Virus record (IMG/VR): IMGVR_UViG_3300010389_003143
Span: 1-64,000 of that record
Strand: one strand, 5' to 3'
Origin: a virus
Length of the DNA stretch: 64,000 bases
Under the pieces are notes generated by a model. That model was not told where the DNA came from and made no database searches. It saw nothing but the letters and a program-made list of their open reading frames with translations. The translations under genes were made by a program, and so were the position numbers. Numbering within the stretch: the first letter of the stretch is position 1; every line of letters starts with the position of its first letter. This document shows, in pieces, positions 26,372-56,822 of this stretch.

Positions 26372-26383
26372 GTTGTCTCCTAT

Positions 26384-26441
26384 CGAAAAAAATAATAGCC
26401 ATGGCCCTTGGCTTTGACAACCTTTTTTGACCATGGCTAAA
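26384..26441 (-). terminator. Possible terminator/attenuator upstream of topA
   Basis: On the minus strand a 9-bp inverted repeat TAGCCATGG (complement of 26431-26439) pairs with CCATGGCTA (complement of 26396-26404) across a 26-nt loop and is followed by TTATTTTTTTCG. The stem is palindromic around CCATGG. The T-run suggests termination before topA, so topA could be read only by partial read-through or from a promoter inside the loop. Confidence 0.45.
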
Positions 26442-41132: not shown

Positions 41133-42641
41133 TTAGCTGAAAATCCAAAGCCTTTGACCAGCATCATAAATCTTTGACCAACCCCATTCTTTAGCCTGCT
41201 CAGCTTGACTTAAGCCTCTCTTGTCCATATTGGCTCGACATCTAAGTCTATTATAGGTTTTTCTCTTATCGGTCCATCTAAAGCCAAGTGTTTCTCTTTC
41301 CATCTGAAAGCCTAGCTGCTGCAAATAATTACCCGTGCCATACCTTAGATCCGCCCAATAATGAATCGGAAGCTTTTTTGAGTTATCTCTTATCTTAGAT
41401 ATAAGCCTTGAGGCTCCTCCGACAACAACCGTTTCAACTTTTGAGCATAGCCTTTCTATCTTTAGATATTCTGAGTAAACCTTATAAGAAGCAGCCATAA
41501 TAATTTCATCATTATGGATAAGACCAAAAGCAGGGGCGTTAAAGCTGCCCATTAGGTGATTCTTTGAGAAAAACTCTCTTGCCTCTTCTGCGGTTAGTTT
41601 TCTAATCTTTGTTTTTCTGGCATAAAAAATCCTGCTTCTTCCTTCTGCATTATTTATCATTGATTTTATTATTTCAATCTTATCGTAGACCTCATCTTCT
41701 CTAAACTGAAATATTCTCAAGCCAGAATCTTCAAAATCCTTCCTAAGGTTAAAGTGATAATTTTTATCGACCCCATTAAAGTCGGAGTGCCAATAAAGTC
41801 CATCAACATTGATGGCAGTCAAGCTATTTAATTTAAAGTCCGGCTTATATCTTAATCCAGGGTATCTTTCAAGGTCAAAAGTCTTGTTATAAAATTCTAG
41901 CCCAAGCTCTCTTGATAAAAGTGTTTCTAAATGATTGTTTTTGTCACCATGACCACTTATATATTCGGCCACATCCCCTGTAGTTATAATTCCCTCTCTT
42001 ATTAGCCTGTAGGCATTCACAGGAGGTACAGAAGCTTCCAAGCAGGCCTGATTGACGGTTCTCCCGTCCTCTAGCGTGCTAATCAGACCCCTATCAATCT
42101 TTGTGGATATTATCTTTCTTACAACATCTTCGGATTGAGCCGGGTGTCTTACTCCAAGTTTTTTTAAGTTTGTTTCCTCCGCCTTATTCCTTACTTCAGA
42201 GTTCTGCATCGGATTTTCTACGCCATATTTTTCTTTTACAGATTTTTTTATCTTTTTCTTTATAACATCCGACTGAAATGAGTGCTCTACACCATATCTT
42301 TCCCTATTTGTCTGAACAACTTTTCTCATTCTAGCTTTCTGCTTTAAATTATTATCTTTTTTAATATTATTCTTTCTAAGAGCAGAAGCAATAGTCGGAT
42401 CTGTGACGCCGGCCATTTTTGCCATGTCCACGGTTGACATATTTTTAACAATATAATTATCGTAAAGCCACTCCTTATCTAGATGGTATTTTGGCCTAGA
42501 TAAAGAGTACTTTCGAATTCGATCTTTAACATATTTGTATGATCGATTAATTTTCTTGGCTATTTGATTAATTGATAGCCCTTGATTTATGTAAAGATTT
42601 GTAAGCAGATCTTTAGTTAAATCTTCTTTTACCACCCCCAC
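41133..42641 (-). CDS. Free-standing homing endonuclease (EDxHD / Vsr-like)
   Basis: 502 residues. N-terminal helix-turn-helix (residues 20-45, 'GLSINQIAKKINRSYKYVKD') and repeats of the NUMOD type (YGVENPMQNSEV, 'LGVRHPAQSEDV') for DNA recognition lead into a PD-(D/E)XK/Vsr-like nuclease: 'RYKPDFKLNSLTAINVDGLY', WHSDF and GLRIFQFREDEV. A C-terminal domain of about 170 residues contains 'REFFSKNHLMGSFNAPAFGL'. I recognise this as the I-Bth0305I/EDxHD class. It starts within the 3' end of nrdB (13-bp overlap), so it probably homes into the RNR operon of related phages. Start is GTG or the next GTG. Confidence 0.75.
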   Translation of the reverse strand: MGVVKEDLTKDLLTNLYINQGLSINQIAKKINRSYKYVKDRIRKYSLSRPKYHLDKEWLYDNYIVKNMSTVDMAKMAGVTDPTIASALRKNNIKKDNNLKQKARMRKVVQTNRERYGVEHSFQSDVIKKKIKKSVKEKYGVENPMQNSEVRNKAEETNLKKLGVRHPAQSEDVVRKIISTKIDRGLISTLEDGRTVNQACLEASVPPVNAYRLIREGIITTGDVAEYISGHGDKNNHLETLLSRELGLEFYNKTFDLERYPGLRYKPDFKLNSLTAINVDGLYWHSDFNGVDKNYHFNLRKDFEDSGLRIFQFREDEVYDKIEIIKSMINNAEGRSRIFYARKTKIRKLTAEEAREFFSKNHLMGSFNAPAFGLIHNDEIIMAASYKVYSEYLKIERLCSKVETVVVGGASRLISKIRDNSKKLPIHYWADLRYGTGNYLQQLGFQMERETLGFRWTDKRKTYNRLRCRANMDKRGLSQAEQAKEWGWSKIYDAGQRLWIFS

Positions 42642-43597
42642 TCTCCGTCCATTCCTGAGGCATTATAGTCGGTTACACGTTTCTCGAAGAAGTTGCTCAT
42701 AGTGTCTCCATTGAGAACCCAGTCTAGCCAAGGTAGGGGATTTTCTTTAACACCATAATTTGGCTTTAGACCAAGCTGAATAAGCCTACGATCAGCAATA
42801 TATCTGATGTACTGCTTCATTTCATCCGCAGTTAGGCCTTCGACCGGCCCTACAGCGTAAGCTAAATCGATAACTTTGTCCTCAAGCTTAACGGCAGTCT
42901 TGTACATCTCATAAATAGACTTTTTAAACTCATCATTAACAACTCTTGGGTGTTCTTCACAGAATGTGCGGAAAAGCTTTGACATATATTGGACGTGAAT
43001 GGTCTCGTCTCTTACTGACCACTCAACGATAGTACACATGCCCTTCATTTTTCCAAATCTTTGGTAATTTAGAAGCATAACAAAAGCAGAAAAAAGAGAC
43101 ATACCCTCATTGCAAACAGATTGAGCCAGAGATAGCCCGATTCCTCTTTTTGAGGAAACATTTGTGCTCTGCATGAACTCAAGCTTTTCAGCCATCTGCT
43201 CATATTCGAGAAAAGCCCAATATTCTTTTTCCTCAAGGCCCAGGGTATCATTCAAAAGAGCATAAGCACGCTGGTGAGTGCCCTCTCTATTTGCAAAGCT
43301 AAGCAGCATATTTCTTATTTCGTTATTTTTGAAAACAGGAATAAATAAGTCACAATAATTTCCTCCGACCTGTACGTCAGTCTGAGTAAATAACCTTAAG
43401 ATTTGGGTAATATGCTCTTTTTCGTGATGAGTAAGGGCCTTGCTCTTCCATTGGTTTACATCCTCCTGTAATTCGGCCTCCCAGGTGCCCCAGTGAACCT
43501 TTTCATGGGCCTCCGCAGCCTCCATAGCCCATGGGTACTGAAATGGCTTGTAGGCCTCAGATGAATTTAGTAATCCGCCCCTATTTATCCCTGACAT
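42629..43597 (-). CDS. nrdB: Ribonucleotide reductase class I beta subunit
   Basis: 322 residues from the second ATG (43595-43597), ten bases after AAGGAG; the first ATG has a one-base spacer. Ferritin-like R2 core: D in 'LFTQTDVQ', E in 'FANREGTHQRAY' with a candidate radical Tyr, 'QSVCNEGMSLFSAFVML' and 'VEWSVRDETIHVQYM' with further diiron ligands. C-terminus 'TDYNASGMDGEWGW' is the NrdA-docking tail. It supplies the radical for dNTP synthesis. Its 5' end overlaps nrdA by 13 bp, its 3' end overlaps a homing endonuclease. Confidence 0.88.
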   Translation of the reverse strand: MSGINRGGLLNSSEAYKPFQYPWAMEAAEAHEKVHWGTWEAELQEDVNQWKSKALTHHEKEHITQILRLFTQTDVQVGGNYCDLFIPVFKNNEIRNMLLSFANREGTHQRAYALLNDTLGLEEKEYWAFLEYEQMAEKLEFMQSTNVSSKRGIGLSLAQSVCNEGMSLFSAFVMLLNYQRFGKMKGMCTIVEWSVRDETIHVQYMSKLFRTFCEEHPRVVNDEFKKSIYEMYKTAVKLEDKVIDLAYAVGPVEGLTADEMKQYIRYIADRRLIQLGLKPNYGVKENPLPWLDWVLNGDTMSNFFEKRVTDYNASGMDGEWGW

Positions 43598-46302
43598 GAT
43601 AGACATTCTCCTTCTTCTTCTGCATAATCCGCTAACGCAACTCTCTCTACTTTTGCCGAAACCTTCTCTGGATCAACTCCGGCATTTGTTCTTAGATAAT
43701 AAAGCGCTTTCAGACCCATTTTCCAAGCTTTAATATGGGTCATTAGAACGTAGTTCTTATTGGACCCAGCTGGGAAGAATAGATTTACGCTCTGCCCCTG
43801 GCATATAAATTCCTGTCTTCCACCAGCATGCTCAACAACCCATCTCTGGTCTAGCTCAAAAGCCGTCTTGAAAACAGATCTTTCCCAGTCGCTAAGAAAG
43901 TCAAGATGTTGAACAGACCCTTGATTGAGGATTACGGAATTCCAAGCTTCTTCCTTTTCTTTTTCGTCTAGATAGTTATCAAAGACCTTATCTAGCTCGG
44001 GGTTCTTTACCAAAAATGATCCAGCCCTTGTTCTGTGAGTATAGGCGTTTGACTTCCAAGGCTCAATTGACGGACTTGTGGCTAATATAATAGAGCTATT
44101 TGCATTAGGGGCTATAGCAAGAAGATGTGCGTTTCTTACTCCGCTTTCGGGGCCGTCTGGATAAGCTCCCTTTTCATCGGCAAGCCTTCTGGTCTCTTCT
44201 GTCGCTCTTTCTTTAATATCGCTAAATATAGAAGAATTCATAGCTGTAGCCATAGCGCTTTCCCACGGTATTCCGTTTCTCTGAAGAAGATCGTGGAAGC
44301 CCATTGCTCCAAGGCCGATGCTCCTCTCTCCTCTGGCTCCATTTACAGCCCTCCAAAGCTCCTTTGGAGCATTCTCGATAAATACGTCCAAAACGTTATC
44401 GAGCATTCTTACTAGGTCCTGAACAATCTTGGTGTCTTTCCACTCATCCCATTTTGCAAGATTTAGACTGCTCAGGCAGCATACGGCAGTCCTATCAGCC
44501 GCCGTAGGCAAAAATATTTCAGAGCACAAGTTTGAGCCATTTATTCTTAGATCCAAATCTTTAAGCTCTTTTGGAAGATGCTTATTTGAGGTGTCTATAA
44601 AATGAAGATAAGGTTCGCCGGTTCGGTATCTTGTTTCGATAATCCTCTGAAGAAGCTCTCTTGCACCTAGGGTATCTCTAACTGTTCCATCCGCAGGGTC
44701 TACGAGGTTCCAGTCTTCATTTGCTATAGCTGCCTTCATGAAATCGTCAGTTATATTTACAGCATTATGCAAATTAAAACACTTTCTATTTGGATCACCG
44801 CCAGTTGGAATTCTCATTTGTAAAAATTCAACAATATCAGGGTGTGAGATATCTAGGTAAGCAGCATATGAGCCCTTCCTGGTATTTCCACAGACTAGAG
44901 ATCTACCGTTACTTCTTACTAGCAGTTTGCCTTCTGGAACTAATGCACAGTAAACATATCCATCATAAGGGACCTCTTCCTTCCTAACCCTTTGAGTTGT
45001 GAAATGGTTTTTGTTTGAGACTACAACATAAAAAGAATTTTTTCTTGGATATTCTCTCTGCTGCTCTTTAATTCTAGCTCTTTTGCCAGCTAAAGTAGCT
45101 GCAGTAAAGACAGTATCAGCGCATGCTTTGCTTACTGATGAATATGTAAAGTTTGTTGCCCTCTTACTTGAGTCCCAATTAGATACTTCATCCAAGAAGC
45201 TCGTAAGCCATTCATAACTTCTTGTTTCTGGCCTTACCCAAGAGAGGTCTTTTGACTCCCAAGCATAGTTGGGGACATCGGGGATATTTCTTACATCGCT
45301 GACTTTCACCCTGATTGTGCAAGTTCCATCATTTCTATAAATAAGATTATAGCTATAGTTAGACTCTCTAACTATTCTGAGCAACCTATCGATCTTTCTC
45401 TGCTTCTTAAAATGAAACTCAATAGACTTACCGTTATAATTAGTTCCATCAGCCTGAAAGGCGACAAGAAGTCTGTCTGAATTTGAAAAACTTTCTTTAT
45501 TATTATTTTTAATTTTTCCAGAAAAAGCCATTCTCACTTCAGAGTGTGATGGAAGCATATCAGCCCTTACTTTTTGAAGATCGTCATTCCAGCCACCCTT
45601 GGTCTTTCTGTCTATAACCATTGAGTGATTTGGAGTTACCATAATATCAACATTTTTTTCATCCACTACACGGATAAGGTTGCCATTATGATATTCTCTT
45701 ACAAGCTCTATCGGCTTGACAAACGACACTTCGCCCCTGGAGGTTACCTGCGCGACCTTATCATGGTCGGTTAGTTCGGAAAACTTAATGTAGCCTTTGT
45801 CCGTCAATACCTCAACATCAGGGTGGTAACACTTGCCCTGGCGATAAGCATTCATATCTGCGTCAACTGTTTTTAGGAATGGAATTGGTCCGGGTGACTT
45901 TTCCGAAACAGAGCGAACTGATGACCAGTGGCCACCGACCCCGCCTCCCTTGACAGATAGCCATCTAAGCTCTGAGGAATGCTCTATAAGGCCCTCAAGG
46001 GTGTCGTCGACCCAGGTAAGGAAGCAGCTTATCGGAAGCGCCCTCCAGGCCTCTCCGGGCTTTGGAGCATTGCTCAGAACGGGGGAGGCAAACATGAACC
46101 AGCCCTTGCTTGCGTAATCATAAATTCTTTGGGCAAAACGAAGGTCGCCGTCGCAATAAGCGAGAGCTGCTCTACCAAACGCCTCCTGGGGCGAGGTTTC
46201 TTCGTTCAGCATGTAGTACTGTTTTAACAGGGTTTTTGAAAAATCATTTAAATTATCATCTCTGTCGAAATCCAGCAGGATTCCGCCGTACTCAGTGCTC
46301 AT
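43585..46302 (-). CDS. nrdA: Ribonucleotide reductase class I alpha subunit, intein-split
   Basis: 905-residue precursor; 589 residues after removal of a 316-residue intein (158-473). Key residues: C93 in 'LPISCFLTW', the thiyl-radical Cys in 'GSNLCSEI', its partner in 'VCCLSSLNL', radical-path tyrosines 'LKALYYLRT', C-terminal redox pair 'ECLSCQG'. There is no ATP-cone before the catalytic barrel, so overall activity control by ATP/dATP is likely absent, as in many phage enzymes. The intein sits at the RQGK/TRKGS site used by other RIR1 inteins. Preceded by an unusually long 360-bp leader. GGGG site six bases before the ATG. Confidence 0.9.
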   Translation of the reverse strand: MSTEYGGILLDFDRDDNLNDFSKTLLKQYYMLNEETSPQEAFGRAALAYCDGDLRFAQRIYDYASKGWFMFASPVLSNAPKPGEAWRALPISCFLTWVDDTLEGLIEHSSELRWLSVKGGGVGGHWSSVRSVSEKSPGPIPFLKTVDADMNAYRQGKCYHPDVEVLTDKGYIKFSELTDHDKVAQVTSRGEVSFVKPIELVREYHNGNLIRVVDEKNVDIMVTPNHSMVIDRKTKGGWNDDLQKVRADMLPSHSEVRMAFSGKIKNNNKESFSNSDRLLVAFQADGTNYNGKSIEFHFKKQRKIDRLLRIVRESNYSYNLIYRNDGTCTIRVKVSDVRNIPDVPNYAWESKDLSWVRPETRSYEWLTSFLDEVSNWDSSKRATNFTYSSVSKACADTVFTAATLAGKRARIKEQQREYPRKNSFYVVVSNKNHFTTQRVRKEEVPYDGYVYCALVPEGKLLVRSNGRSLVCGNTRKGSYAAYLDISHPDIVEFLQMRIPTGGDPNRKCFNLHNAVNITDDFMKAAIANEDWNLVDPADGTVRDTLGARELLQRIIETRYRTGEPYLHFIDTSNKHLPKELKDLDLRINGSNLCSEIFLPTAADRTAVCCLSSLNLAKWDEWKDTKIVQDLVRMLDNVLDVFIENAPKELWRAVNGARGERSIGLGAMGFHDLLQRNGIPWESAMATAMNSSIFSDIKERATEETRRLADEKGAYPDGPESGVRNAHLLAIAPNANSSIILATSPSIEPWKSNAYTHRTRAGSFLVKNPELDKVFDNYLDEKEKEEAWNSVILNQGSVQHLDFLSDWERSVFKTAFELDQRWVVEHAGGRQEFICQGQSVNLFFPAGSNKNYVLMTHIKAWKMGLKALYYLRTNAGVDPEKVSAKVERVALADYAEEEGECLSCQG
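44884..45831 (-). mobile_element. Intein in NrdA (RIR1-type), 316 aa
   Basis: N-terminal block A: Cys1 then 'YHPDVEVLTDKGYIKFSELT'. Block B contains 'VTPNHSMVI'. Degenerate LAGLIDADG blocks occur near 'LLVAFQADGTN' and 'YEWLTSFLDEVSN'. C-terminal end 'YVYCALVPEG' then SLVCGN, with Thr as +1 extein residue. Penultimate residue is Gly instead of His, a known variation but one that can slow Asn cyclisation. Precise ends by motif: 158-473 of the precursor. Confidence 0.85.
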
Positions 46303-46666
46303 TTATTTCCCCAATTTTCATCTTTAAATTTTTCGTTTTAGCTGAAGCGATCGTGGCTAAAGATTTATGCATGAAAATTGTTTCGACAATAATTTTTAAG
46401 TCTCTTCTACACAACTTCTTACTTACCTTTAACCACTTAAACTTGCAAAAAAATTGTTACGAATTTATTCGTTCCAAAGAAATCTGCGTACTTAAGCCTT
46501 CCATTTTAATAGATTTTCAGACCTTACATTAGAGGGCTTGCTTTAGAATCTTATTGTTTTTCTTTTGTTTTATATATTCTTTTGAGCATCTAAAAAAAAA
46601 ATAATTTTTTATTAAATTTACAAAATCTCATAGATCCATTCGATGCTTAAAAGCCTGATTTGAACT
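46303..46666 (-). other. Long AT-rich leader of nrdA
   Basis: About 360 bp without a convincing gene. It holds the ribosome site of nrdA (GGGG, 46309-46313) and a perfect 6-bp inverted repeat ACGAAT-TT-ATTCGT at 46459-46472. Only very short upstream frames occur (for example 15 codons from an ATG near 46506). No riboswitch class is recognised. Confidence 0.4.
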
Positions 46667-46701
46667 GACAAAAACGGCCCGAGCATTTTGTAGCCCGAGC
46701 C
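46667..46701 (-). terminator. Terminator after the diadenylate cyclase-like gene
   Basis: On the minus strand RNA, GGCUCGGGC and GCUCGGGCC (46693-46701 and 46676-46684) pair with two G-U wobbles across an 8-nt loop, then GUUUUUGUC follows. The DNA arms look like direct repeats because the 8-mer is nearly self-complementary. It lies 30 bp after the stop at 46731 and before the nrdA leader. Confidence 0.7.
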
Positions 46702-46730
46702 ATCTCAAATTATGAAAGTTAGCTGATCAG

Positions 46731-47297
46731 CTATTCATCTGACGGATCAAACTGCTCTACGAATGTGCCATTCTTCCAGGTTCTCACTACTGCAGTTTCT
46801 TCAGATAGCGTGAATACCGCTATAATATCTTCTCGCGTAGAAAAAGATGCAGCACTAATATGCCTTGTGCCGCAGCCATCGGGTACATCAAGAGATGAGT
46901 CATCAACTACCAGGTAAATCTTTGATCCAATTATTTGACCGTTTCTATTAACGATTATAGCGCCGTCAGCACCTTCGTTCAACATAGAGAAGACATCTTT
47001 CGTAAAAGCATCCTCACATATGTTTATGTACTTCTGTATAGGATTTACCCCTATCTGCCTCATGCCAGGAACCATGTGATCGTCAGATTTGTCGAAAACT
47101 CCAAGAACAATTATAAGTCCAATATTTCTATTTTCATTAAAGTTATTTCTAGATATTTGGGACAATAGCGTGAATATACTTTTTTCTACTTTTTGGAAAT
47201 CTCTTGCAGCATTAAACTGATATGAGAAATCTATGCTAGAGATTTTTCTAGAAAATTCTGGCTTGCTGACTTTTGCGGTCTCCAAGTCATTACTCAT
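46731..47297 (-). CDS. Diadenylate cyclase-like (DisA_N) protein
   Basis: 188 residues, single DisA_N-type domain. Catalytic motifs: DGA at 111-113 (GADGAIIV), 'CGTRHISAA' at 142-150 and 'VFTLSEETAVVRTWKNG' (161-177). These match the DGA and GTRHRAA/SEE signatures of enzymes making c-di-AMP from two ATP, except that the third Arg position of RHR is Ile. The family's N-terminal helical bundle or C-terminal DNA-binding domain is absent, as in CdaS/CdaA core domains. It follows SpoVR with 19 bp and is likely its operon partner; a terminator follows. Activity is untested; a non-cyclising nucleotide-binding role is possible. Confidence 0.7.
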   Translation of the reverse strand: MSNDLETAKVSKPEFSRKISSIDFSYQFNAARDFQKVEKSIFTLLSQISRNNFNENRNIGLIIVLGVFDKSDDHMVPGMRQIGVNPIQKYINICEDAFTKDVFSMLNEGADGAIIVNRNGQIIGSKIYLVVDDSSLDVPDGCGTRHISAASFSTREDIIAVFTLSEETAVVRTWKNGTFVEQFDPSDE

Positions 47298-47316
47298 GAC
47301 CTTCCCCTGGTTTATT

Positions 47317-49803
47317 TTAGTTGCTAAAACCTAATTCATCATAGGTGTAATTTATAATAAAACCAGAATCATCTATTGTCTCTAGATTTAGCGGAGATCT
47401 CCAGGCCTCATATATGTATTCCATAACTTTCTCTGCATGGGTTACATCTAAGGTTCCTATATTTTTTGAAACATGGTCAAGTTGCAAAAAGCCATCTTCA
47501 ATACCCGTTATAGCTATAAGCGGTGCCCTATAATTATAAAGATCCTTCGTAAGCGATTCAACAACGCTATTTAGGTCTGTTCCGGTTATGTGAATGCCCC
47601 GATCTCCGCCAGGAGTCTGGATATCCTTATAACTAAACAGCTTAAGCTCTTGTGCCAACTCTTTTGTTAAATAATTTCTAATAAAGGATATATCGTCTTC
47701 CGTTTCTACAACTTTATAGACTTTCTCTAGCCCAGTCAGGCTTGAGGTGCCCTCCTCATGGAATCGGTCCCACCTTTCCTTTATATCTGTAAATATCTTA
47801 AAGCCTAAGAAATACGGGTTTATATTTAAGCTATTTCTTCCTGGCTGCACGACCTTTTCGTGAAGTCCACAGAAATCTAGATGCTCTCCATGATTTATAC
47901 ATTCCAAATCAGACATTAAGTAAGCGTGAACAAAGCTTGCAAATCCTTCGTTCATTATCTTTGTCATGTACTGCGGATAGAAGTAATAAGTTTCTTCCCT
48001 TATGATTTCAAGAATGTCTACCTGCCATGACTCAAGGCTATTTGAATAATTAATCAAGAACCATAGTATATCCTTTTCCGGATTGGGAGGAAATCTATTC
48101 TTTGGCACAACCATTTTTTTCGACATGGACTTTTCGTCCAGCAGGTCCGAGAACTCATCTTTTGCCACAGTCTTAAAGTACTTTTTCTTTCTTGGGTATT
48201 TGCTGCGCCTTAGACCTTTGTGCCAGTCTATATGCTTATCCAGAGCAAAGCCAATATCCATAATTCTTTCGACAGCGTCTATTCCGTATTTCTGAATATA
48301 TTCCTCTATTCTTTGCGCTCTTTCTGCGGCATGGTAGACCATCTTATTATCAGTTTTCTTAAATAAATAATTATTTTTAAAGAAATGACAGTTGTGAGCT
48401 ATCATTCCATTGTCAATAACAAAACTGTGATCTTCTTCAACTTCTATATCATAGACTGGGACCTCTTCGAGTAACTCGACTCTTCTTGCCATAGTCACTT
48501 TTGAAAATAGATGCTCATCGGTCTGCTCTGAAAAAGACCAAGTGCGATTTATCTCTTTCTCAAAATTGATATCGCAAATTTCAAGAAGCTTTCTGTGAGC
48601 CTTCCCATGTACACTTAAATCATAACAGGTTTTTCTGCCCTTCCGACTCCTGGACTTTATGCTTGCTTTAATTCCAAAATCTTTAAGAATGGACTTTGTC
48701 TTATAAGCCAGCTCACTACTTGTTGTGGTAAAGCTTGACTGGTATTTATCGCCCTTAATATGGCCATCACCCTCGAATAGGCCTCTAATCATGCCTATCA
48801 TAAAATCTCTTGGAGTATCCGGGTCTGCTGCAAAATTTGGAATAAATTTATTATTGGAGTGCCGACCACACTCTTTCTCAAGGAACATTCCAAATGACTT
48901 GTCATACACCATAACTCTCCTTGAAGAGTCAGACTCTCTTATGGTGACTCCGGTGTTTATGCCCAACTTTTCAAACCAGTTCTGAATAAAGTCCGAATAT
49001 GAGGCTTCATCTTTATGTAGCGAAAATGCAAAAGATGTATTGTTACGACTTCCTTCTGCTATATATAATCCAATTATTCTGCCAAAATCGCAGTCTAAAT
49101 CAACCTGATATCCGCCAAACTTATTGGCCAACTCCTTCTTCCATCTAGGTGTTGGTCTTGATACTTCTATGGGAATAAGTATGCTCTTTTTATTTTTGCT
49201 ATATGATATCTTTGGAGTTATCACCAAATCGTTTTCGGTAACGTCTTTTGCTTCGCACCAGAACATCATATTGTCACGCTTAATCAAAAGTCTATGCTCG
49301 GGGGTGCATCGCGATGGGCTTTCCTCTCCCTTTACTCGAATCTCAACCAGATCCTTTGTTTTTTTGGTTTCCCTTGACTCGATAACTTGGCGGTATCGAC
49401 CTTTGTGAGTTAAAACCATATCTCCTGGAACTATACTCTTTATGTCTACGAACCCCCTCGTTGTCTCGACCCTTGTGTCTCCGACAAAGCAGTGCCCAAT
49501 TACGTGAGCTATGACCATAGTATTTGCTATATCAGAGTTTGTATCCAGCAAGAATGCATAGGACGGGTTGTTATTCAAAACAACCTCATAAACCTTGGAA
49601 AAGCCCATTTCTCCTTGCATCTTCTGATAATCATAGGATTGGCCGTAACTCCAGTGCCTAGCCCTTGTTGGTAGTCCATAGCTGATAACCTCAAGCATTG
49701 TATCTTGAGATACAACCTCGTAATTTATCGGATAAGGGTCGAGATTCATATCTTCGGCCATCTTTTCCAAGATTTTTATTCTTTCAGTTAGGACCTTGTT
49801 CAT
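47317..49803 (-). CDS. spoVR: SpoVR-family protein, intein-split
   Basis: 828-residue precursor, 461 residues after removal of a 367-residue intein (105-471), close to B. subtilis SpoVR. Extein motifs: 'PINYEVVSQDTMLEVISYGL', 'ARHWSYGQSYDYQK', AHVIGH joined to CHFFKNN, 'NEGFASFVHAYLMSD' and 'VQPGRNSLNINPYFLGFKIF'. SpoVR/YcgB proteins are linked to spore cortex, stationary-phase and nitrogen-stress states and form a set with PrkA and YeaH. Their chemistry is unknown; the conserved His/Glu/Cys suggest a metal centre, and the intein splits exactly there. The ATGA start is coupled to the YeaH-like gene. Confidence 0.88.
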   Translation of the reverse strand: MNKVLTERIKILEKMAEDMNLDPYPINYEVVSQDTMLEVISYGLPTRARHWSYGQSYDYQKMQGEMGFSKVYEVVLNNNPSYAFLLDTNSDIANTMVIAHVIGHCFVGDTRVETTRGFVDIKSIVPGDMVLTHKGRYRQVIESRETKKTKDLVEIRVKGEESPSRCTPEHRLLIKRDNMMFWCEAKDVTENDLVITPKISYSKNKKSILIPIEVSRPTPRWKKELANKFGGYQVDLDCDFGRIIGLYIAEGSRNNTSFAFSLHKDEASYSDFIQNWFEKLGINTGVTIRESDSSRRVMVYDKSFGMFLEKECGRHSNNKFIPNFAADPDTPRDFMIGMIRGLFEGDGHIKGDKYQSSFTTTSSELAYKTKSILKDFGIKASIKSRSRKGRKTCYDLSVHGKAHRKLLEICDINFEKEINRTWSFSEQTDEHLFSKVTMARRVELLEEVPVYDIEVEEDHSFVIDNGMIAHNCHFFKNNYLFKKTDNKMVYHAAERAQRIEEYIQKYGIDAVERIMDIGFALDKHIDWHKGLRRSKYPRKKKYFKTVAKDEFSDLLDEKSMSKKMVVPKNRFPPNPEKDILWFLINYSNSLESWQVDILEIIREETYYFYPQYMTKIMNEGFASFVHAYLMSDLECINHGEHLDFCGLHEKVVQPGRNSLNINPYFLGFKIFTDIKERWDRFHEEGTSSLTGLEKVYKVVETEDDISFIRNYLTKELAQELKLFSYKDIQTPGGDRGIHITGTDLNSVVESLTKDLYNYRAPLIAITGIEDGFLQLDHVSKNIGTLDVTHAEKVMEYIYEAWRSPLNLETIDDSGFIINYTYDELGFSN
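48391..49491 (-). mobile_element. Intein in SpoVR, 367 aa
   Basis: Starts Cys1 ('CFVGDTRVETTRGFVDIKSI'), block B 'RCTPEHRLLI', LAGLIDADG motifs 'GLYIAEGSRN' and 'GLFEGDGHIKGD', terminal blocks 'VPVYDIEVEEDHSFVIDNGM' and IAHN, followed by Cys as the +1 residue. All splicing residues are canonical, and the two DOD blocks look intact, so both splicing and homing activity are plausible. Confidence 0.92.
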
Positions 49804-50990
49804 TTTTTAACCTCTTTGTATGCTCTTCCATCTATGTTAAAGAATAACTTTAACGCATCAAAAACTTCATCCTTAGATGATATCCTCATTGAAACGAATC
49901 TTGTTCTCTTTATTTCACCCTCTAGCATATAAGAGAGTTTCTTATCATCCGTCCCCCAAGAATATGAATCGCCAAGGTCTATTTCTCCATACCCTATTGC
50001 TCTGACCATCGGCAGCATTTTTTTAACGTAATCAATGACGAGCATGTTGTCATTAAACCAGTTGTCGCCGTCGCTGAACTCAAAAACATAATTATTCCAC
50101 TGATCAGCAGGGTGATGCTCACTCATATGCTCGTAGGCAAGCTTAAAGGCCGAAGAACACTTTGTGCCCCCAGAGCCGCTCATACTAAAGAATTCTTTTT
50201 CAGTTGTAGTAAATGCACTTACATCATGGGCGATAAAAACAAGTGATATATTTTTATATCGCCTCTTAAGAAACTGAACCATCCAGAAATAAAAGCTCTT
50301 TGCAATAAAGACTTTATCTTGTGTCATGGAGCCACTGATGTCCATCATAAGATAAACCGCAGCGTTTGATAAATACTCTTTATTTACCTCATAATGGCGA
50401 TACCTTAAATCGTCTTCATTGATTCCGCCGATTTTCGCCTCACCTTTTGCAGCGTTTCTCTTTAGGTTTTGAATTAAAGTCTTTTTTAGATCTAGATTTG
50501 GATAAATACCCTTTTTATTTATAGAGGAAAGCTCCTCTGTCTCTATCTCTATAAAAGAAGACTTCTCCGGCTCCATCCATGGGAGATTTAGCTCATCCAT
50601 AAGGATCTCAACAAGCTCATCTATGGTGACTTCTGCATCATAGAAGACCTCGCCCTCTTTGTCGCCTGCCTTATCTCCTTTTCCCTTTCCTTTCTTCTTT
50701 TTATTTATCCTAAATTTATCACCGCCCTTGACATCGAGGCCTTGGCCTGTGCCTGAGCTGTTATTTAGCTTTCCGTACTTAAACTTATACCTATCGAGAA
50801 ATCTAATCGGCACCTTTATCTTTTTATCGCCATCGGACGTAATGATATTGTGCTCAGTGATTAAGTCCTTTCCGTTTTTGCGTATAGCATCGTTTACAAG
50901 CTTTTTGTGCCTCTCAGAGTCTCTCTTGCCCCTTTGCTTTAGCTTCCAAATATCGGAAAGATTTTCACGCGATTTCGGAGAGCCAGACAT
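49800..50990 (-). CDS. yeaH: YeaH/YhbH-family protein (UPF0229)
   Basis: 396 residues (427 in E. coli YeaH). N-terminal charged region, then a segment 'IKVPIRFLDRYKFKYGKLNN' typical of the family, a basic linker 'KKKGKGKGDKAGDKEGE', and a VWA-like domain from about residue 200 with MIDAS 'YLMMDISGSMTQDK', 'FIAHDVSAFTTTEKEFFSMS' and GSGGTKCSSAF. YeaH is the partner of the YeaG/PrkA kinase. The start is two bases after prkA; the end overlaps spoVR by 3 bp (ATGA). AAGG site is within the end of prkA. Confidence 0.88.
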   Translation of the reverse strand: MSGSPKSRENLSDIWKLKQRGKRDSERHKKLVNDAIRKNGKDLITEHNIITSDGDKKIKVPIRFLDRYKFKYGKLNNSSGTGQGLDVKGGDKFRINKKKKGKGKGDKAGDKEGEVFYDAEVTIDELVEILMDELNLPWMEPEKSSFIEIETEELSSINKKGIYPNLDLKKTLIQNLKRNAAKGEAKIGGINEDDLRYRHYEVNKEYLSNAAVYLMMDISGSMTQDKVFIAKSFYFWMVQFLKRRYKNISLVFIAHDVSAFTTTEKEFFSMSGSGGTKCSSAFKLAYEHMSEHHPADQWNNYVFEFSDGDNWFNDNMLVIDYVKKMLPMVRAIGYGEIDLGDSYSWGTDDKKLSYMLEGEIKRTRFVSMRISSKDEVFDALKLFFNIDGRAYKEVKK

Positions 50991-50992
50991 TA

Positions 50993-53900
50993 TTAATTCC
51001 TTGCCATTAAGGAGCTTACGTATCTGAGAAGCTTGTTTGCGCTTTCTGCGTTGTATCCATGCTTATCGCATAGAGTCTGCACAACTACGTTTACTCTCTT
51101 TAGCTCTTCTTCGTCGGGGTTTCTGGCAGATACGGTTAGTCGAATGACATCCTGCCTCTCATCGAATAGCTGCTTCTGAAGGGCCTCTCTGAGCTTTGCG
51201 TGCTCTCTGTAGTCATAAGCGCCACCATTTGTTCTGGCGGACTTAAGCATCTTTCTGTAGATCTCCTGGCGGAATGAGTTTTTGCCAGACTCAGTAATCC
51301 CAACCTTCTCTTCGATTGAGCGCATCAGCCTCTCATTCGGAGGAGAATACTCGCCCCATTCGTCCTCAATCTTTGCTCCATCGAGGTAAGCGCCGACATG
51401 ATCCATGTAGTTGGACAGAAGGTTCTGAATCTCAGACTCGAAGTTTACGAAGAATGCCTTCTGGACCTCATTTCTGGCAATCTTAGAATACTCCTCGATA
51501 ACTGTCGTAAGGATATTGTCCAGGCGGTCAATCTCCTCCTTATCGAGCTTCGGATTTGAACTAAAGCCATCTCTAATTGCTCTGATTGCATCGATAGGAG
51601 TGAGGCAGCTGGTTCCGTCTTGAGCTAGAGCTGATGAAAGCCTATTTATAATGTATCTCGGAGAAACACCGCCCATGCCCTCTGCCTCAAATTCTTTCTT
51701 GAGAGTTGGTACATCGGATTGAGAGAATCCGTCGACCTCCTCTCCATCATAAAGCTTCATCTTGTTTAGCTGAGTTAGGCCATTATTCTTAGAATCCTTA
51801 AGTCTAGATAGAATTGCGAACATTGCTGCGCAATGCAGCGTGTAAGGCGCTATATGTACGTTCTTGAACATAGCCTGGCCGATAAGCTTCTCGTAGATCC
51901 TTACTTCCTCTGATACCTCAAGGTTATAGGGAACCTTTACGACAATAATTCTGTCATGAAGGGCTTCCATTTCGTCCTTTGCTAGGAAACGCTTATACTC
52001 GGTCTCGTTAGTGTTATGGCAAAGAACCTGCCCTATACCTGCGACGAATGAGTGATTTCCTTCACATGCAATGTCGAATACTTCTAGTGACTCTACATAT
52101 AGAGATTCTATTTTATTTACACCAGCATTTGTATTCTTTAGCCTAAAACGGATACCGTAGGCATCTTTTCCAGTTGTCGTGTAACCATGATAAATCGAGT
52201 AATCCTTACCCAGAATAGAGGATATAAATCCAACTTGGGAGGCAAGCATCTTTGAAGTAGTTTTGTATCTAAAGAAGTTTTCCTCATACTCTTCACTTGC
52301 ATTATCAAAGTAGAAGTTTGTGGAGCCATCACCTTTTACTAATTCGTCTAAGAAAAATGTTAGCATCTCATTGCTTAGATTGAATACAAAGTTCGGAACC
52401 TTCTTGCCATCGGAGTATTTGCCGCAGTTTAGCTCCAAGAGGTCTTTCCATATCTTGGTTGACAAATGAAGTCTGCTTGTTCTATCTTTTTTATCGCTTC
52501 TGTCCTGAAGAGAAGATGTGGAGGTGCTAATTCTTTCGGACGCAGACTTTATGAGGCTAAGCTCGTTTAATGACTGCTGACTAATAATGGCATGAGCGCT
52601 ATTTACATGTCCCTCAGTAATATACCATGCCATAGTTTTTAGCAAATCTTTTACATCTTGAGTGTCCTTAAGATTGTATCTAACTTTAACTTTATTTTTT
52701 CTAAATTGGCCATTACCCTTATATCCTTCGATATCCTTTATTCTGGCATAGCCATCATCATCAACTTCCATATCTTCTGATAGCTCCAAGGTAAAGCTCT
52801 CTGCAACTTCAATTAGCGGAGCTTCTCTTAGGGCGCAAACATCTAGTTTATCCTCGGGATAGAATGGCTCAAGATCATCAGAGTAAATAGAGTGATTATA
52901 CGTAGTTTCTACAACTCCATTTTTTTGAATAGTTTTAATTAGATTTCCAGTAAATGGATGGCTATAAAAATTCTTTACCTTTGTCCATTCAAATTCTTTT
53001 GTATTTAAATTCATGGCAATAACTTCAATGTTAGTATCGCCCGCCCTAGCTAGATCTGCGATTGTATCAAACTTTACTAGTCCATCTTTTCTATAGGGAA
53101 CAGGCTCATCGCCAACAATACTATGAGCTAGCAAAAACTCGTCAGCATAAATGAACGGAAATCTGCCAGTTTTAATATTTTTCTCTTGAGCAAGGGTCAG
53201 GAGAACATAAAGGAACTTCTGATCGACTTTGAGCATCTCAACGAACTCCATGATGCCTCTATTCGCTACGTTCAGCTCTCCATCAAAGCGGTAGGCTCTG
53301 GGGTCTGACTCAGAACCGAATTCGCCAATCTTGCTCAAGTCCATTGAGCCTACAAGCTCGGATACATCCTGACTCTTCTTGTCTGATGGAACAAACGTTC
53401 CCACTCCTATTCTGGACTGCTCTGAGAAGAACATTCTTTCTACAGGCAGCTTAAGAAAGTCTCCATCATACTTTTCCTTTAGGATAAGGTCCATGTAAGG
53501 AGAAAGCTTTCCATCAATCTTTATGCCATAATCGTCAAAGAACTTCTGCCTTAGTGATTCGGGGATAGCAGTAAGCGGATCCTCATACATTGGAGACTCT
53601 GATAAGCAGTAGGTCTGGCCCTCATCCGTCTTGGCGAACTTCTCAAGACCTCTCTTCAGGGAGACGGCTAGCTGGGACTTTCCGGAAGAAGTGGGTCCGT
53701 ATAGCAGAAGGATTCTTCTGGAAACCTCAGACCCGGCGGAAGCAGCCTTTAGGTAGGACATAATCTCTGTAAGCGATTCATCTATTCCGAAAAGATCCTG
53801 GTCAAAGAAGTTGTATTTCGTGATATTGCCATCCTCATCGCGCTCGATGCCTTGGGACTCAATCATTCTCAGAACTCTGGTGTGAGAACTCATATGAATT

Positions 53901-54022
53901 TCTGGATTTTCCGTAACCATGCCAATATAGTCAGCAAGAGTCCCGCTCCAGTTTAGTGAACTTTCTTCGTCAACATGATTTTCTAATAGCTTTAGAAGAT
54001 TTGTTTTCTTAGATTGAGGCAT
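50993..54022 (-). CDS. prkA: PrkA/YeaG serine protein kinase (AAA+), intein-split
   Basis: 1009-residue precursor, 639 residues after removal of a 370-residue intein (301-670), matching E. coli YeaG (644). AAA+ Walker A 'LLYGPTSSGKSQLAVSLKRG' (107-126), 'VGTFVPSDKKSQDVSELVGS', 'GIMEFVEMLKVDQKFLYVLL', and Walker-B region 'FPFIYADEFLLAH' joined to TNETEYKRF. 'HDRIIVVKVPYNLEVSEE' and the C-terminal PrkA domain follow. It phosphorylates proteins in starvation responses; in E. coli it is linked to nitrogen-stress. The intein interrupts the Walker B/sensor region. First gene of the PrkA-YeaH-SpoVR-DAC run. Confidence 0.9.
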   Translation of the reverse strand: MPQSKKTNLLKLLENHVDEESSLNWSGTLADYIGMVTENPEIHMSSHTRVLRMIESQGIERDEDGNITKYNFFDQDLFGIDESLTEIMSYLKAASAGSEVSRRILLLYGPTSSGKSQLAVSLKRGLEKFAKTDEGQTYCLSESPMYEDPLTAIPESLRQKFFDDYGIKIDGKLSPYMDLILKEKYDGDFLKLPVERMFFSEQSRIGVGTFVPSDKKSQDVSELVGSMDLSKIGEFGSESDPRAYRFDGELNVANRGIMEFVEMLKVDQKFLYVLLTLAQEKNIKTGRFPFIYADEFLLAHSIVGDEPVPYRKDGLVKFDTIADLARAGDTNIEVIAMNLNTKEFEWTKVKNFYSHPFTGNLIKTIQKNGVVETTYNHSIYSDDLEPFYPEDKLDVCALREAPLIEVAESFTLELSEDMEVDDDGYARIKDIEGYKGNGQFRKNKVKVRYNLKDTQDVKDLLKTMAWYITEGHVNSAHAIISQQSLNELSLIKSASERISTSTSSLQDRSDKKDRTSRLHLSTKIWKDLLELNCGKYSDGKKVPNFVFNLSNEMLTFFLDELVKGDGSTNFYFDNASEEYEENFFRYKTTSKMLASQVGFISSILGKDYSIYHGYTTTGKDAYGIRFRLKNTNAGVNKIESLYVESLEVFDIACEGNHSFVAGIGQVLCHNTNETEYKRFLAKDEMEALHDRIIVVKVPYNLEVSEEVRIYEKLIGQAMFKNVHIAPYTLHCAAMFAILSRLKDSKNNGLTQLNKMKLYDGEEVDGFSQSDVPTLKKEFEAEGMGGVSPRYIINRLSSALAQDGTSCLTPIDAIRAIRDGFSSNPKLDKEEIDRLDNILTTVIEEYSKIARNEVQKAFFVNFESEIQNLLSNYMDHVGAYLDGAKIEDEWGEYSPPNERLMRSIEEKVGITESGKNSFRQEIYRKMLKSARTNGGAYDYREHAKLREALQKQLFDERQDVIRLTVSARNPDEEELKRVNVVVQTLCDKHGYNAESANKLLRYVSSLMARN
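52013..53122 (-). mobile_element. Intein in PrkA, 370 aa
   Basis: Starts with Ser1 ('SIVGDEPVPYRKDGLVKF'), block B 'VVETTYNHSIYSD', LAGLIDADG-like 'TMAWYITEGHVNS' and 'FLDELVKGDGSTNFYF', end 'VFDIACEGNHSFVAGIGQ' then VLCHN, followed by Thr. Ser1/His-Asn/Thr+1 is an accepted class 1 combination. It lies right after ADEFLLAH of the kinase. Confidence 0.9.
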
Positions 54023-54025
54023 GAT

Positions 54026-54313
54026 TTAGTTTTCTCCATATATATTTCTAATTGTTCTCGAATCACCGGACCTAACTTTATTAGCAATTTTTTTGGCTTC
54101 TTCTTTTATCTCGCTAATAATTGTTTCTTTATCCTTTTTTATCTTACTAGATAAAGTGCCAAATGTTTGAGTGAATTCGCAAATATCGTTGCATTTATTA
54201 CACTCTATTTTTTTAAAATGACCAGAATTTTTCAGCTCTAAATAGAGGGCTATAGAAAAGCTGTATTCCACCTCTTCTGAGCAATTAGTGCAAGAATATC
54301 TGTATTTAGCCAC
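54026..54313 (-). CDS. Zinc-ribbon protein
   Basis: 95 residues. Two pairs of cysteines (YSCTNCSEE and IECNKCNDIC) form a zinc ribbon in the first half; the second half is a charged helix ('KDKETIISEIKEEAKKIANK'). Type common in T4-like phages; function unknown. Three bases before prkA on the same strand. Confidence 0.65.
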   Translation of the reverse strand: MAKYRYSCTNCSEEVEYSFSIALYLELKNSGHFKKIECNKCNDICEFTQTFGTLSSKIKKDKETIISEIKEEAKKIANKVRSGDSRTIRNIYGEN

Positions 54314-54499
54314 CTACTCTTCCTCTTCTGAATTATATATTACGATATCTTTTTCTACTTTTAGCTTGCCAGCTAAAGAAAAATCTCTTAATATTTTCTT
54401 TTTAAATTTCGCGTCGGTAACCCTAATTGTTATCTCTAGGTCATTAGACTTTGGGTTGTATAGAAAGTTTTTTATCTTACCTATTTCTTTTTCCGTCAT
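54314..54499 (-). CDS. Small protein between dnaB and prkA blocks
   Basis: 61 residues, one beta-rich domain (DLEITIRVTDAKFKKKILRD) and an acidic tail (YNSEEEE). Directly abuts the Zn-ribbon gene and overlaps the upstream gene by 23 bp. Family unknown. Confidence 0.5.
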   Translation of the reverse strand: MTEKEIGKIKNFLYNPKSNDLEITIRVTDAKFKKKILRDFSLAGKLKVEKDIVIYNSEEEE

Positions 54500-54794
54500 A
54501 AAGCGACTCTATTGCTGTTTTGATATGAGGGTTGTCTATTTCATTCAAAAGAAATAGCAGATCTGTTTGAGGCAGTTTTTCTATTTTAGCAATTGATGAC
54601 AGTGGCACATGCAATATAAAGCTAGGCTTTTCACCTGCAGATAATCCTTCAAAATCATCGCTAATCGGCACAACTGCAAGTGAGTCATCTTTCATGCTAA
54701 TGCTATTTACTATATATTTTTTAGAAATATCTGCATATATTGTTTTTAAAATAATTAAGTCATTTTTGCGAATAGATTCGATGTTATATTTCAT
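54477..54794 (-). CDS. Small unknown protein overlapping dnaB
   Basis: 105 residues from the ATG at 54792-54794, which overlaps the end of the helicase gene by 11 bp (GGTGA five bases upstream). Beta-rich sequence with 'KYIVNSISMKDDSLAVVPIS', then helix 'LPQTDLLFLLNEIDNPHIKT'. No family recognised; possible helicase accessory factor from position only. Confidence 0.5.
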   Translation of the reverse strand: MKYNIESIRKNDLIILKTIYADISKKYIVNSISMKDDSLAVVPISDDFEGLSAGEKPSFILHVPLSSIAKIEKLPQTDLLFLLNEIDNPHIKTAIESLYDGKRNR

Positions 54795-56151
54795 TTTCAT
54801 CACCAAAATCTTCCGCCCAGTCATCCGGCATATCTTCTATTCTAGAGTTTGGAAATACCTTTCTTAGCGATACTTTGCCCTTCGCACCGTCTCGGTTTTT
54901 AACTATATGGATCTCCATATCTTCGCGAAGGCGCTCGTCTTCCCTGTTGGCTATTATAAACACGACCGCAGCGTTATCTCCAATCATTTTTGAGCGTCCA
55001 AGATCTTCGAGAGAGACATCGTCAAGCTTTTTGCCGCCGGTCTTTTTCTGCTGAGCCTTTCTTTGCGCCGCAGTTACAACTGGAATATTCTTTTTCCTGC
55101 AAAACTCATGAAGCTCCTCTGACACTCGGCCTACATCTAGCCAATCTGATCCAACCTGACCTATCGTGGGCTTCATTAGCTGCAGGTAATCCACGAATAC
55201 AGCATCTGGCTTGAAAACTCCAAGAAGATTTTCATACTTAGCCTCGATCTCCCCCATTGTTGTTCCGCGAGGCATGTCCAGAACGTAAAATACTTTATCA
55301 TAATCTTTTTGAAAATCTAAATTAGCAAGCCATCTCTTTTCTTCTACGTCGGTAAGCTGCGCTCTTGCGATGCCTCTGTGTCTTACATTTGCCACATTTG
55401 CATCCACCCTTTGCTCTAGCTGCTTTTTGCTCATCTCAAGAGATATATAAAGAACATTTTTTCCATCGTTGAATCCGGTAACGCCCTCAGACGGGACGTT
55501 GCTTCCAAGCCATGCATTAATTGCCATGTTCATCATCAACATTGACTTACCAGAAGAGCTTGCGCCGCCAATTACAAGCATCTCAGAGTTTTTAATGCCC
55601 CAGGTGTAATCATCCAGCTCTTTGTAACCAGATAGAAAACCTCTAATTTCATCCGGGTTCTCCATCGTATATTTATAGTCGTCCACTCTTGAGTCAACGG
55701 ACTGAGTTACGTTGCCCTCGGTAAAAACGTCAGATTTATAGAGCCTTTCTGTTTTGGATATTATCCTTTTTAGCTCATCGTTGTAGTCGACCAACGATTC
55801 ATAATCCGAATCCAGCTCTTCTGCTTTTTCTGCAAGACGATCGATTAGATATTTGTTATATCTTTCTTTTATTCGATCAATATAGAAGCCTATTTCATTA
55901 GCGCTACAACTTTCACCTCTGATAAAGTCTATTATTTCGGTCTCTTCCTCTTCTGCATCAAGAAGCTTTTCCAGAACCTCATACGATGGAGGACTCTTGT
56001 GTCTGGAGTAATAAGAGTGAATTTGAAGTGTAGCAGGCTTAAAGCTTGGGAGGACAACCAGCTTCAAGAGATCAAACTCTATCTGCATATAAACATCATT
56101 TACATTGGATGATCCCTTGAGCATCCAATTTAAAATTTTGGCATCATGCAT
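54784..56151 (-). CDS. dnaB: Replicative DNA helicase (DnaB-like)
   Basis: 455 residues. The N-terminal helical domain (1-140) is degenerate but of the right size; the RecA-like core has Walker A 'GGASSSGKS' (195-203), 'LYISLEMSKKQLEQR', Walker B 'DAVFVDYLQLM' (316-326, D321), 'VVTAAQRKAQQKK' and 'IHIVKNRDGAKGKVSL'. It should unwind DNA ahead of the fork, loaded by the DnaC-like protein encoded directly upstream (TAATG overlap). T4-type Gp41 relatives are possible, but motif spacing is DnaB-like. Confidence 0.9.
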   Translation of the reverse strand: MHDAKILNWMLKGSSNVNDVYMQIEFDLLKLVVLPSFKPATLQIHSYYSRHKSPPSYEVLEKLLDAEEEETEIIDFIRGESCSANEIGFYIDRIKERYNKYLIDRLAEKAEELDSDYESLVDYNDELKRIISKTERLYKSDVFTEGNVTQSVDSRVDDYKYTMENPDEIRGFLSGYKELDDYTWGIKNSEMLVIGGASSSGKSMLMMNMAINAWLGSNVPSEGVTGFNDGKNVLYISLEMSKKQLEQRVDANVANVRHRGIARAQLTDVEEKRWLANLDFQKDYDKVFYVLDMPRGTTMGEIEAKYENLLGVFKPDAVFVDYLQLMKPTIGQVGSDWLDVGRVSEELHEFCRKKNIPVVTAAQRKAQQKKTGGKKLDDVSLEDLGRSKMIGDNAAVVFIIANREDERLREDMEIHIVKNRDGAKGKVSLRKVFPNSRIEDMPDDWAEDFGDENEI

Positions 56152-56822
56152 TATTTTCTCCGATAATCTTTGCCGCCAACGATAAACACGTCGACATGTC
56201 GTGACCTAAGTGATTTGAAAGATTTTGCGAAGAACCCCCCAAATATAGAATCTAAGTCATTATCATTTGAGCATAATATGGTCGGCAATTGGTTCTGGAA
56301 CCTTGTTCGCAAAACATACTCAAGAGAAGTACCAAATAGCTGCTCGGCCTTCTCGGATGGAAAAATCCAATGAGATGAAAATTCATCTATAACGAGAAAG
56401 TCCTTGCCGATGAGTTCCTCATAGTATTTCGAGGTATCCATCTGGCTGGATAGCATGTTTGCAACAACATCCGCCATAGTTGTGTATAGTGCCGAATACC
56501 TATTTGCTATCGCAAGTTTTAATATGCAACATGCGGTATAGGTCTTCCCGGTACCAAGATTTCCTGCAAAGATTAGCGACTTACCTGCATCATATAGGGC
56601 GTCTATATCTTCTATTCTTTGCTTTATCGTTCTCTTAAAGTTTGGGTCACCCTCAAAGTCCTTGAAAGACTTCGACCAATACTCTACCGGAATATTCGCG
56701 GAACAATATTTGTCTAGTCTTGCGGATTTTGCCTCGCACCTTATGCAACCATCTCCTGAACAGGCGGTACAAGACTCCTTAACCTGCTCTTTTTTTCTCT
56801 CAATCTTTTTCCTCGGAATCAC
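56151..56822 (-). CDS. dnaC: DnaC-like helicase loader (AAA+)
   Basis: 223 residues. An N-terminal Zn site with C18, C21, C26 and C29 (CTACSGDGCIRC) precedes an AAA+ core with Walker A 'GNLGTGKT' (87-94), Walker B 'FLVIDEFSS' (142-150) and the arginine-rich 'FKSLRSRHVDVFIVGGKDYR' tail. DnaC/IstB-type loaders place the ring helicase on DNA. The next gene (helicase) starts in a one-base TAATG overlap, strong evidence for partnership. Confidence 0.85.
   Translation of the reverse strand: MIPRKKIERKKEQVKESCTACSGDGCIRCEAKSARLDKYCSANIPVEYWSKSFKDFEGDPNFKRTIKQRIEDIDALYDAGKSLIFAGNLGTGKTYTACCILKLAIANRYSALYTTMADVVANMLSSQMDTSKYYEELIGKDFLVIDEFSSHWIFPSEKAEQLFGTSLEYVLRTRFQNQLPTILCSNDNDLDSIFGGFFAKSFKSLRSRHVDVFIVGGKDYRRK

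Follow-up and report, generated by a model that had tools for sequence, protein, structure and literature searches.

What does a phage do with a bacterial stress operon to which a nucleotide second-messenger synthase has been added? The question is raised by four minus-strand genes in a 64,000-nucleotide stretch of viral DNA (hereafter the window; positions 1-64000 of the 80,058-bp virus record IMGVR_UViG_3300010389_003143), which encode, in order, PrkA, YeaH, SpoVR and a diadenylate cyclase (DAC). Genes, order, conservation, selection, separate capture, the fold and residues of the DAC, its sigma-factor neighbour and the terminator were computed for this locus and its relatives. A sequence-only reading had described the four as a tightly packed operon ending at one terminator and as a combination seemingly new for phages. 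The described layout was recovered: prkA and yeaH are separated by 2 bp, yeaH and spoVR share a 4-bp ATGA overlap, and spoVR and the DAC gene are separated by 19 bp. All four open reading frames (ORFs) scored above the curated Pfam cut-offs, the DAC gene is preceded by a strong Shine-Dalgarno sequence (ccAGGGGAAGGtcATG), and the cassette ends in a stable hairpin with a U-tail, which was not listed by a simple terminator scanner, probably because its stem extends into the U-tract. The gene order goes far beyond chance, since relatives whose YeaH identities span 45-90% share it.

Relatives were collected by scanning IMG/VR with a YeaH alignment, which gave 142 relatives, 80 loci being kept; the compared contigs were mostly fragments, and near-duplicates among them inflate the counts. 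Of the 80 loci, almost all that were long enough had PrkA, YeaH and SpoVR together, usually in this order. The trio was also present in the cultured Thermus phages phiYS40, TMA, phiLo, MN1 and Lalka (order YeaH-SpoVR-PrkA, without cyclase), trio genes were found in phages of 595-642 kb, and PrkA and SpoVR have been reported for the Ralstonia jumbo phage RsoM2USA (PMC8504454). Rarity of the trio among phages was not supported, in view of these loci, the Thermus phages, a 595-kb phage and RsoM2USA, and the 142 matches together with the Thermus phages ruled out that it is unique to the window's phage; routine occurrence in unrelated phages without the cyclase had been named beforehand as an outcome that speaks against the sequence-only reading, and for the trio alone this is what was observed.

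The cyclase was distributed differently. Whole records were searched for the DAC family in 49 trio records, 17 in the window's clade and 32 outside it, and a DAC was found in 16 of the 17 but in none of the 32 (some of 259-595 kb). The DAC-bearing clade contigs that show all four genes have them in the order PrkA-YeaH-SpoVR-DAC. The claim that the cyclase is a fourth operon member therefore stood, and the claim of novelty held for the four-gene cassette, which is specific to this clade, but not for the trio, which occurs elsewhere in phages without DAC. The sole clade record lacking DAC (L039), in which a 122-amino-acid ORF, cupin-like by eye, follows spoVR, is nested in the PrkA tree, so loss of the gene is the simplest account. 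Several points of the cassette have been invaded, by inteins, by homing-endonuclease genes or by further ORFs, yet the DAC gene stays just 3′ of spoVR; two small ORFs separate the pair in L040 only. DAC distances correlated with those of PrkA (r 0.87), YeaH (0.90) and DnaB (0.88), and a nonsynonymous divergence (dN) of 0.146 with saturated synonymous divergence (dS) indicates purifying selection.

Within the clade, conservation is higher for PrkA than for the replicative helicase. The PrkA proteins of the clade formed one group (support 100/100) beside cellular PrkA of Bacillota, Acidobacteriota and Nitrospinota, set off from the PrkAs of other phages, and window PrkA is 55-57% identical to cellular PrkA as against about 36% to that of other phages. 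At least four groups of phage PrkA were distinguished (the window's clade, a Thermus-phage type, a large metagenomic-phage group and a proteobacterial YeaG type), and by this phylogeny the trio has been captured by phages at least four times; deep placements in the tree are tentative because some branches are long.

The locus is viral, as the sequence-only reading had supposed. A bacterial chromosome or an artefact was ruled out by the virus record itself, phage replication genes, an endolysin gene in the window's own record, and terminase and portal genes in clade relatives, whose contigs reach 395 kb (TerL in three contigs of 317-395 kb, portal in one). The 80-kb record is a virus fragment: TerL and portal had no match within it. 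Searches for T4-type portal and standard sheath families gave no match and were uninformative. The endolysin and the clade's TerL and portal genes place the group in the tailed phages (Caudoviricetes), and the window's clade is a group of large, tailed, uncultured bacterial viruses; a single-protein DnaB scan returned only known clade contigs and distant helicases.

The cyclase is a stand-alone protein with a DAC domain by profile and, in the predicted structure, the DAC fold. Its catalytic-type residues are D111-G112-A113, G143-T144-R145-H146 and S165-E166; D111, G112, G143-H146, S165 and E166 were invariant in an alignment of 14 sequences and A113 nearly so, DGA reading DGS in the DAC of L013. 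The full RHR motif was absent, the third position being I or T in most of the clade and K in L040, its deepest member. Mutation of the whole motif (RHR to AAA) kills the Mycobacterium tuberculosis enzyme (PMC3328451). Two haloarchaeal DacZ proteins have H as the third residue, and a DacZ-like protein of Nitrospinota has V; the Haloferax volcanii DacZ, whose own motif lay outside this comparison of two haloarchaeal proteins, is active as a cyclase (PMC6741144). Because the third Arg varies in DacZ-type proteins and H. volcanii DacZ is active, its absence is not by itself a lesion, and an enzyme dead through an incomplete RHR was not supported.

The best NCBIfam model was DacZ (NF041371; 50.6 bits, compared with 21.4 for CdaA and 18.3 for CdaS), and a profile built from the phage DACs scored about 50 bits against DacZ-type proteins and 16-23 against CdaA. 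The DacZ score lies far below the equivalog cut-off of 430, covers model positions 117-268 only, and goes with the lack of the DacZ N-terminal domain, so the protein is classed as DacZ-like rather than as DacZ. An AlphaFold2 model was built from the 14 sequences (predicted local distance difference test, pLDDT, 74.6; an earlier model from 10 sequences, pLDDT 58, was too poor). With Foldseek against the PDB, all 50 matches listed were CdaM, DisA, CdaA, DacA or the related 2fb5 (probability 1.00, TM-score 0.45-0.57 by query), and a viral structure library gave no significant match. The protein is predicted to make cyclic di-AMP (c-di-AMP) from ATP.

The remaining three proteins keep the marks of their families, PrkA and SpoVR in their extein parts. 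Window PrkA belongs to the PrkA/YeaG family, with Walker A (GPTSSGKS), Walker B (ADE) and the PrkA C-terminal domain in place, and its orthologue in L008 matched a solved relative (9xip). YeaH belongs to the DUF444/VWA family, with residues of the metal ion-dependent adhesion site (MIDAS) type conserved as invariant alignment columns (D217/S219/S221, T276, D307), and falls below the TIGR02877 equivalog cut-off (467.95). SpoVR exceeds the PF04293 cut-off and conserves the AHxxxH and NEG.AS motifs. Two in-frame inteins were overlooked in the first reading, one in the AH^TNE sensor-1 region of PrkA, missing in the clade relatives read, and one at the conserved AHVIGH^C motif of SpoVR. A further intein lies at window 44884-45831 (residues about 158-473) of NrdA (43585-46302), which makes three intein-bearing genes within 11 kb. 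HNH homing-endonuclease genes were seen between yeaH and spoVR in L010 (11192-12772) and L011 (11218-12990), and a relative of these genes lies at window 41133-42641.

Directly 3′ of the DAC gene, seven relatives carry a gene for a sigma-70-type factor, likely starting about -8 to +11 bp from the DAC stop; in L019 it probably starts at a GTG that overlaps this stop. Sigma regions 2 and 4 were both matched in six of six relatives tested. Such a gene was not found after DAC in about half of the clade, and the window holds, beyond the terminator, a decayed remnant with several internal stops and without the recognition helix, so that intact regions 2 and 4 are absent. By comparison of coordinates, the sigma genes that were found in trio phages outside the clade appear to lie at a distance from the trio. 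Genes for DHH-DHHA1 phosphoesterases related to NrnA/Rv2837c were present in all four clade contigs longer than 300 kb, and among 17 other trio records none exceeded the cut-off, one coming close to it. Each of the four clade genes adjoins an ORF of about 250 amino acids. Some DHH-DHHA1 enzymes hydrolyse c-di-AMP, and for that reason a synthesis-and-turnover pair is possible from the gene content.

A promoter scan gave no excess over shuffled sequences. The transcription unit probably starts 5′ of prkA rather than at it, because it is directly preceded, in the same orientation and with overlaps or gaps of at most 3 bp throughout, by three small ORFs, which are probably in the same transcript as prkA, and by genes for a DnaB-like helicase and a DnaC-like loader; the position of DnaB next to the cassette is kept in relatives. 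The cassette thus sits in the replication region, with ribonucleotide reductase and PhoH genes nearby, and from this setting expression is probably early to middle. Coordinates are collected in the table.

Table. Positions of the cassette, its neighbours and related genes (window coordinates unless a relative is named).
Feature	Position	Strand	Evidence
prkA, AAA+ ATPase/PrkA kinase-like, 1009 aa including intein	50993..54022	-	Pfam AAA_PrkA 376 bits, PrkA 240.8 bits
Intein in PrkA, residues 301-670	52013..53122	-	Intein_splicing below cut-off; TIGR01443 over cut-off; L008 comparison
yeaH/yhbH (DUF444), VWA-domain protein	49800..50990	-	Pfam DUF444 274 bits; TIGR02877 361.7 bits
spoVR, 828 aa including intein	47317..49803	-	Pfam SpoVR (PF04293) 356 bits
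LAGLIDADG intein in SpoVR, residues 105-471	48391..49491	-	LAGLIDADG_3 63.6 bits; Intein_splicing 49.6 bits; L008 boundary
Stand-alone DacZ-like DAC-domain protein, 188 aa	46731..47297	-	Pfam DAC (PF02457) 48.6 bits, cut-off 27
Intrinsic terminator 3′ of DAC	46665..46705	-	RNA fold -20.6 kcal/mol, z -5.3, T-tail
Decayed sigma-70-type remnant	46340..46609 (approx.)	-	tblastn with L008 sigma: 39% over 95 aa, E 4e-12
Three small ORFs between dnaB and prkA	54026..54824	-	ORF list
DnaB-like helicase	54784..56151	-	PHROG phrog_19, 6.7e-69
DnaC-like loader	56151..56822	-	PHROG phrog_50, 1.2e-25
Sigma-70-type gene, relatives	L008 13138-13704; L009 13236-13808; L015 13706-14257; L019 13266-13802; L026 10558-11100; L027 10519-11052; L040 14305-14952		
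DHH-DHHA1 genes, clade contigs	L231 1151-1984; L232 311-1198; L233 757-1623; L234 206-1033		

Elsewhere in the window a DNA topoisomerase (Topoisom_bac, Toprim) with zinc ribbons is encoded at 24290-26434; other large phage contigs hold relatives that are about 40% identical. The remainder of the record encodes an 801-amino-acid protein that matched a glycosyltransferase and, weakly, PHROG 4733 (PhuZ tubulin, E 5e-6; record 72272-74677, L002 12272-14677), and a thymidylate-synthase-like gene with an inserted HNH/intein-like segment (record 65793-67559, L002 5793-7559).

The cassette was compared with the systems it most resembles. The bacterial prkA-yhbH-spoVR/yeaGH operon (for example in Thermomicrobium roseum and Sinorhizobium) shares the three genes, their order and strand (identities to the nearest cellular PrkA homologues are given above), but the bacterial loci examined had no attached DAC or sigma gene, inteins and replication-gene neighbours being features of the phage copies. 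That the DAC was copied along with a cellular trio operon was rejected, since no DAC lay beside the trio in a small comparison set of 9 cellular and 4 plasmid loci; a scan of genome contigs with the DAC alignment gave no close cellular relative. The Thermus-phage cluster is likewise a phage-borne trio but differs in gene order, in identity (about 30-36%), in its separate branch of the PrkA tree and in lacking DAC. Archaeal DacZ, the closest-scoring subclass, shares, for example, the VR(W/F)K.G stretch after the SE motif, whereas the phage protein has a long N-terminal helix in place of the DacZ N-terminal domain. CdaS, the sporulation-specific DAC of Bacillus, is likewise soluble, of about 190-205 amino acids, with an N-terminal helix and a DAC domain, and the fold match 2fb5 (B. 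cereus) was noted under this likeness; by sequence the phage DAC is clearly nearer DacZ (bit scores above). Published work links cellular PrkA/YeaG to sigma factors: E. coli YeaG has a positive effect on rpoS under starvation (PMC4664914), and a B. anthracis prkA mutant shows lower sigK expression, PrkA being needed for normal sporulation (PMC13001217).

A tentative reading, held with a little less than even confidence, is that this captured stress-signalling cassette makes c-di-AMP and shifts the state of the host, and in relatives its transcription, during infection. Under it we infer catalysis, interaction of the parts, timing, targets and host as follows. The clade would have captured the complete bacterial PrkA-YeaH-SpoVR module for stress or sporulation, the source being related to Bacillota, Acidobacteriota or Nitrospinota copies; a stand-alone DacZ-type cyclase and, in the ancestral state, a sigma-70-type factor would have become joined to the trio. 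PrkA (an AAA+ ATPase), its VWA partner YeaH and SpoVR may form an ATP-driven machine that remodels or phosphorylates host regulators; the DAC would supply the diffusible arm of this programme by turning ATP into c-di-AMP, and the sigma factor, where present, would direct transcription to phage or stress promoters. The infected cell would be held in a stress-type, non-dividing and metabolically able state, which would suit the long cycle of a large phage, and the DHH-DHHA1 phosphoesterase encoded by the same phages may serve to reset the signal. The evidence, which is circumstantial, points to control of host state and transcription more than to counter-defence. Control of this kind during a long infection is favoured because PrkA/YeaG is linked to sigma factors and the cassette ties the module to an enzyme for c-di-AMP synthesis and, in its ancestral form, a sigma factor. 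Several observations weigh on the other side. The trio serves many phages that have no DAC and no sigma gene next to it, and the parts are separable even within the clade, because DAC is missing from L039 and the sigma gene from about half of the members; the altered third RHR residue also counts here, although it is not decisive. In a search for the TrkA_C domain, no c-di-AMP receptor of the K+ channel type was recognised in the phages. The activity of PrkA is itself disputed, B. anthracis PrkA having negligible kinase or protease activity in vitro (PMC13001217).

The same receptor result, the altered RHR position, the DGS of L013 and the adjacency of DAC and trio throughout the clade are also what would be expected if the DAC were a non-catalytic subunit that binds ATP or c-di-AMP and regulates the trio by sensing host energy or host c-di-AMP. 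Variation of the third R among DacZ-type proteins, and K at this position in the clade's own L040, make this unlikely, as does the retention of D, G, T, R, H and SE by every or nearly every one of the 14 sequences. Distinctly unlikely is a virion-assembly machine, with PrkA-YeaH acting like MoxR-VWA chaperone pairs, SpoVR as a processing partner and the DAC incidental: such pairs have been proposed for jumbo-phage virion assembly (PMC7824862), and the trio of Thermus phage Lalka8 is flanked by portal/minor head genes and TerL, but the clade cassette sits among replication genes, away from virion genes, and the host homologues function in starvation and sporulation. The absence of DAC from many trio phages would fit a looser arrangement in which the DAC tunes K+/osmolyte balance and turgor, the trio separately aids host stress survival and the shared transcript serves timing only; this is less probable still, since the DAC is kept just 3′ of spoVR despite homing-endonuclease and ORF invasions elsewhere in the cassette, which argues for functional coupling.

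Counter-defence was judged improbable, the least so favoured of these alternatives. By analogy, phage c-di-AMP would swamp or replace nucleotide signals and might, for example, keep a Panoptes-like defence off. Known DACs produce the 3′,3′ form of c-di-AMP, which differs from the 2′,3′-c-di-AMP that stabilises VnOptE. The Panoptes effector is kept inactive by a cyclic dinucleotide and fires once phage sponges deplete it, so that a phage cyclase could in principle protect, but VnOptE, the effector tested, is not stabilised by other c-di-AMP isomers (PMC12657218). Nucleotide counter-measures are carried by jumbo phages (PMC7824862); the linkage of the cyclase to PrkA-YeaH-SpoVR-sigma and its strong clade-wide conservation would be left unexplained.

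The occurrence of the trio in phages is already known from annotated records. As far as shown here, a cassette of four or five genes that includes a cyclase has not been described in these collections or in the open-access literature: no convincing phage diadenylate cyclase was found among 50,697 annotated phage records, where CdaA-like matches were unannotated and mostly in short records resembling host DNA, and no description of one was found in the open-access literature.

The function of PrkA-YeaH-SpoVR is a long-standing question, and the cassette suggests c-di-AMP and sigma factors as partners of the module; it is also a small testable unit, in which trio, second-messenger enzyme and sigma factor lie in one operon. 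If the DAC is active, phages would produce c-di-AMP, beyond destroying or sponging it. A stronger form of the host-state reading, in which the phages run a c-di-AMP circuit of their own (DacZ-type cyclase and DHH-DHHA1 phosphodiesterase) wired to the PrkA-YeaH-SpoVR machine and a dedicated sigma factor, is possible but doubtful; were it true, no phage system known before it would have synthesised c-di-AMP, and a transplantable stress- or sporulation-like programme would be run in the host by a virus.

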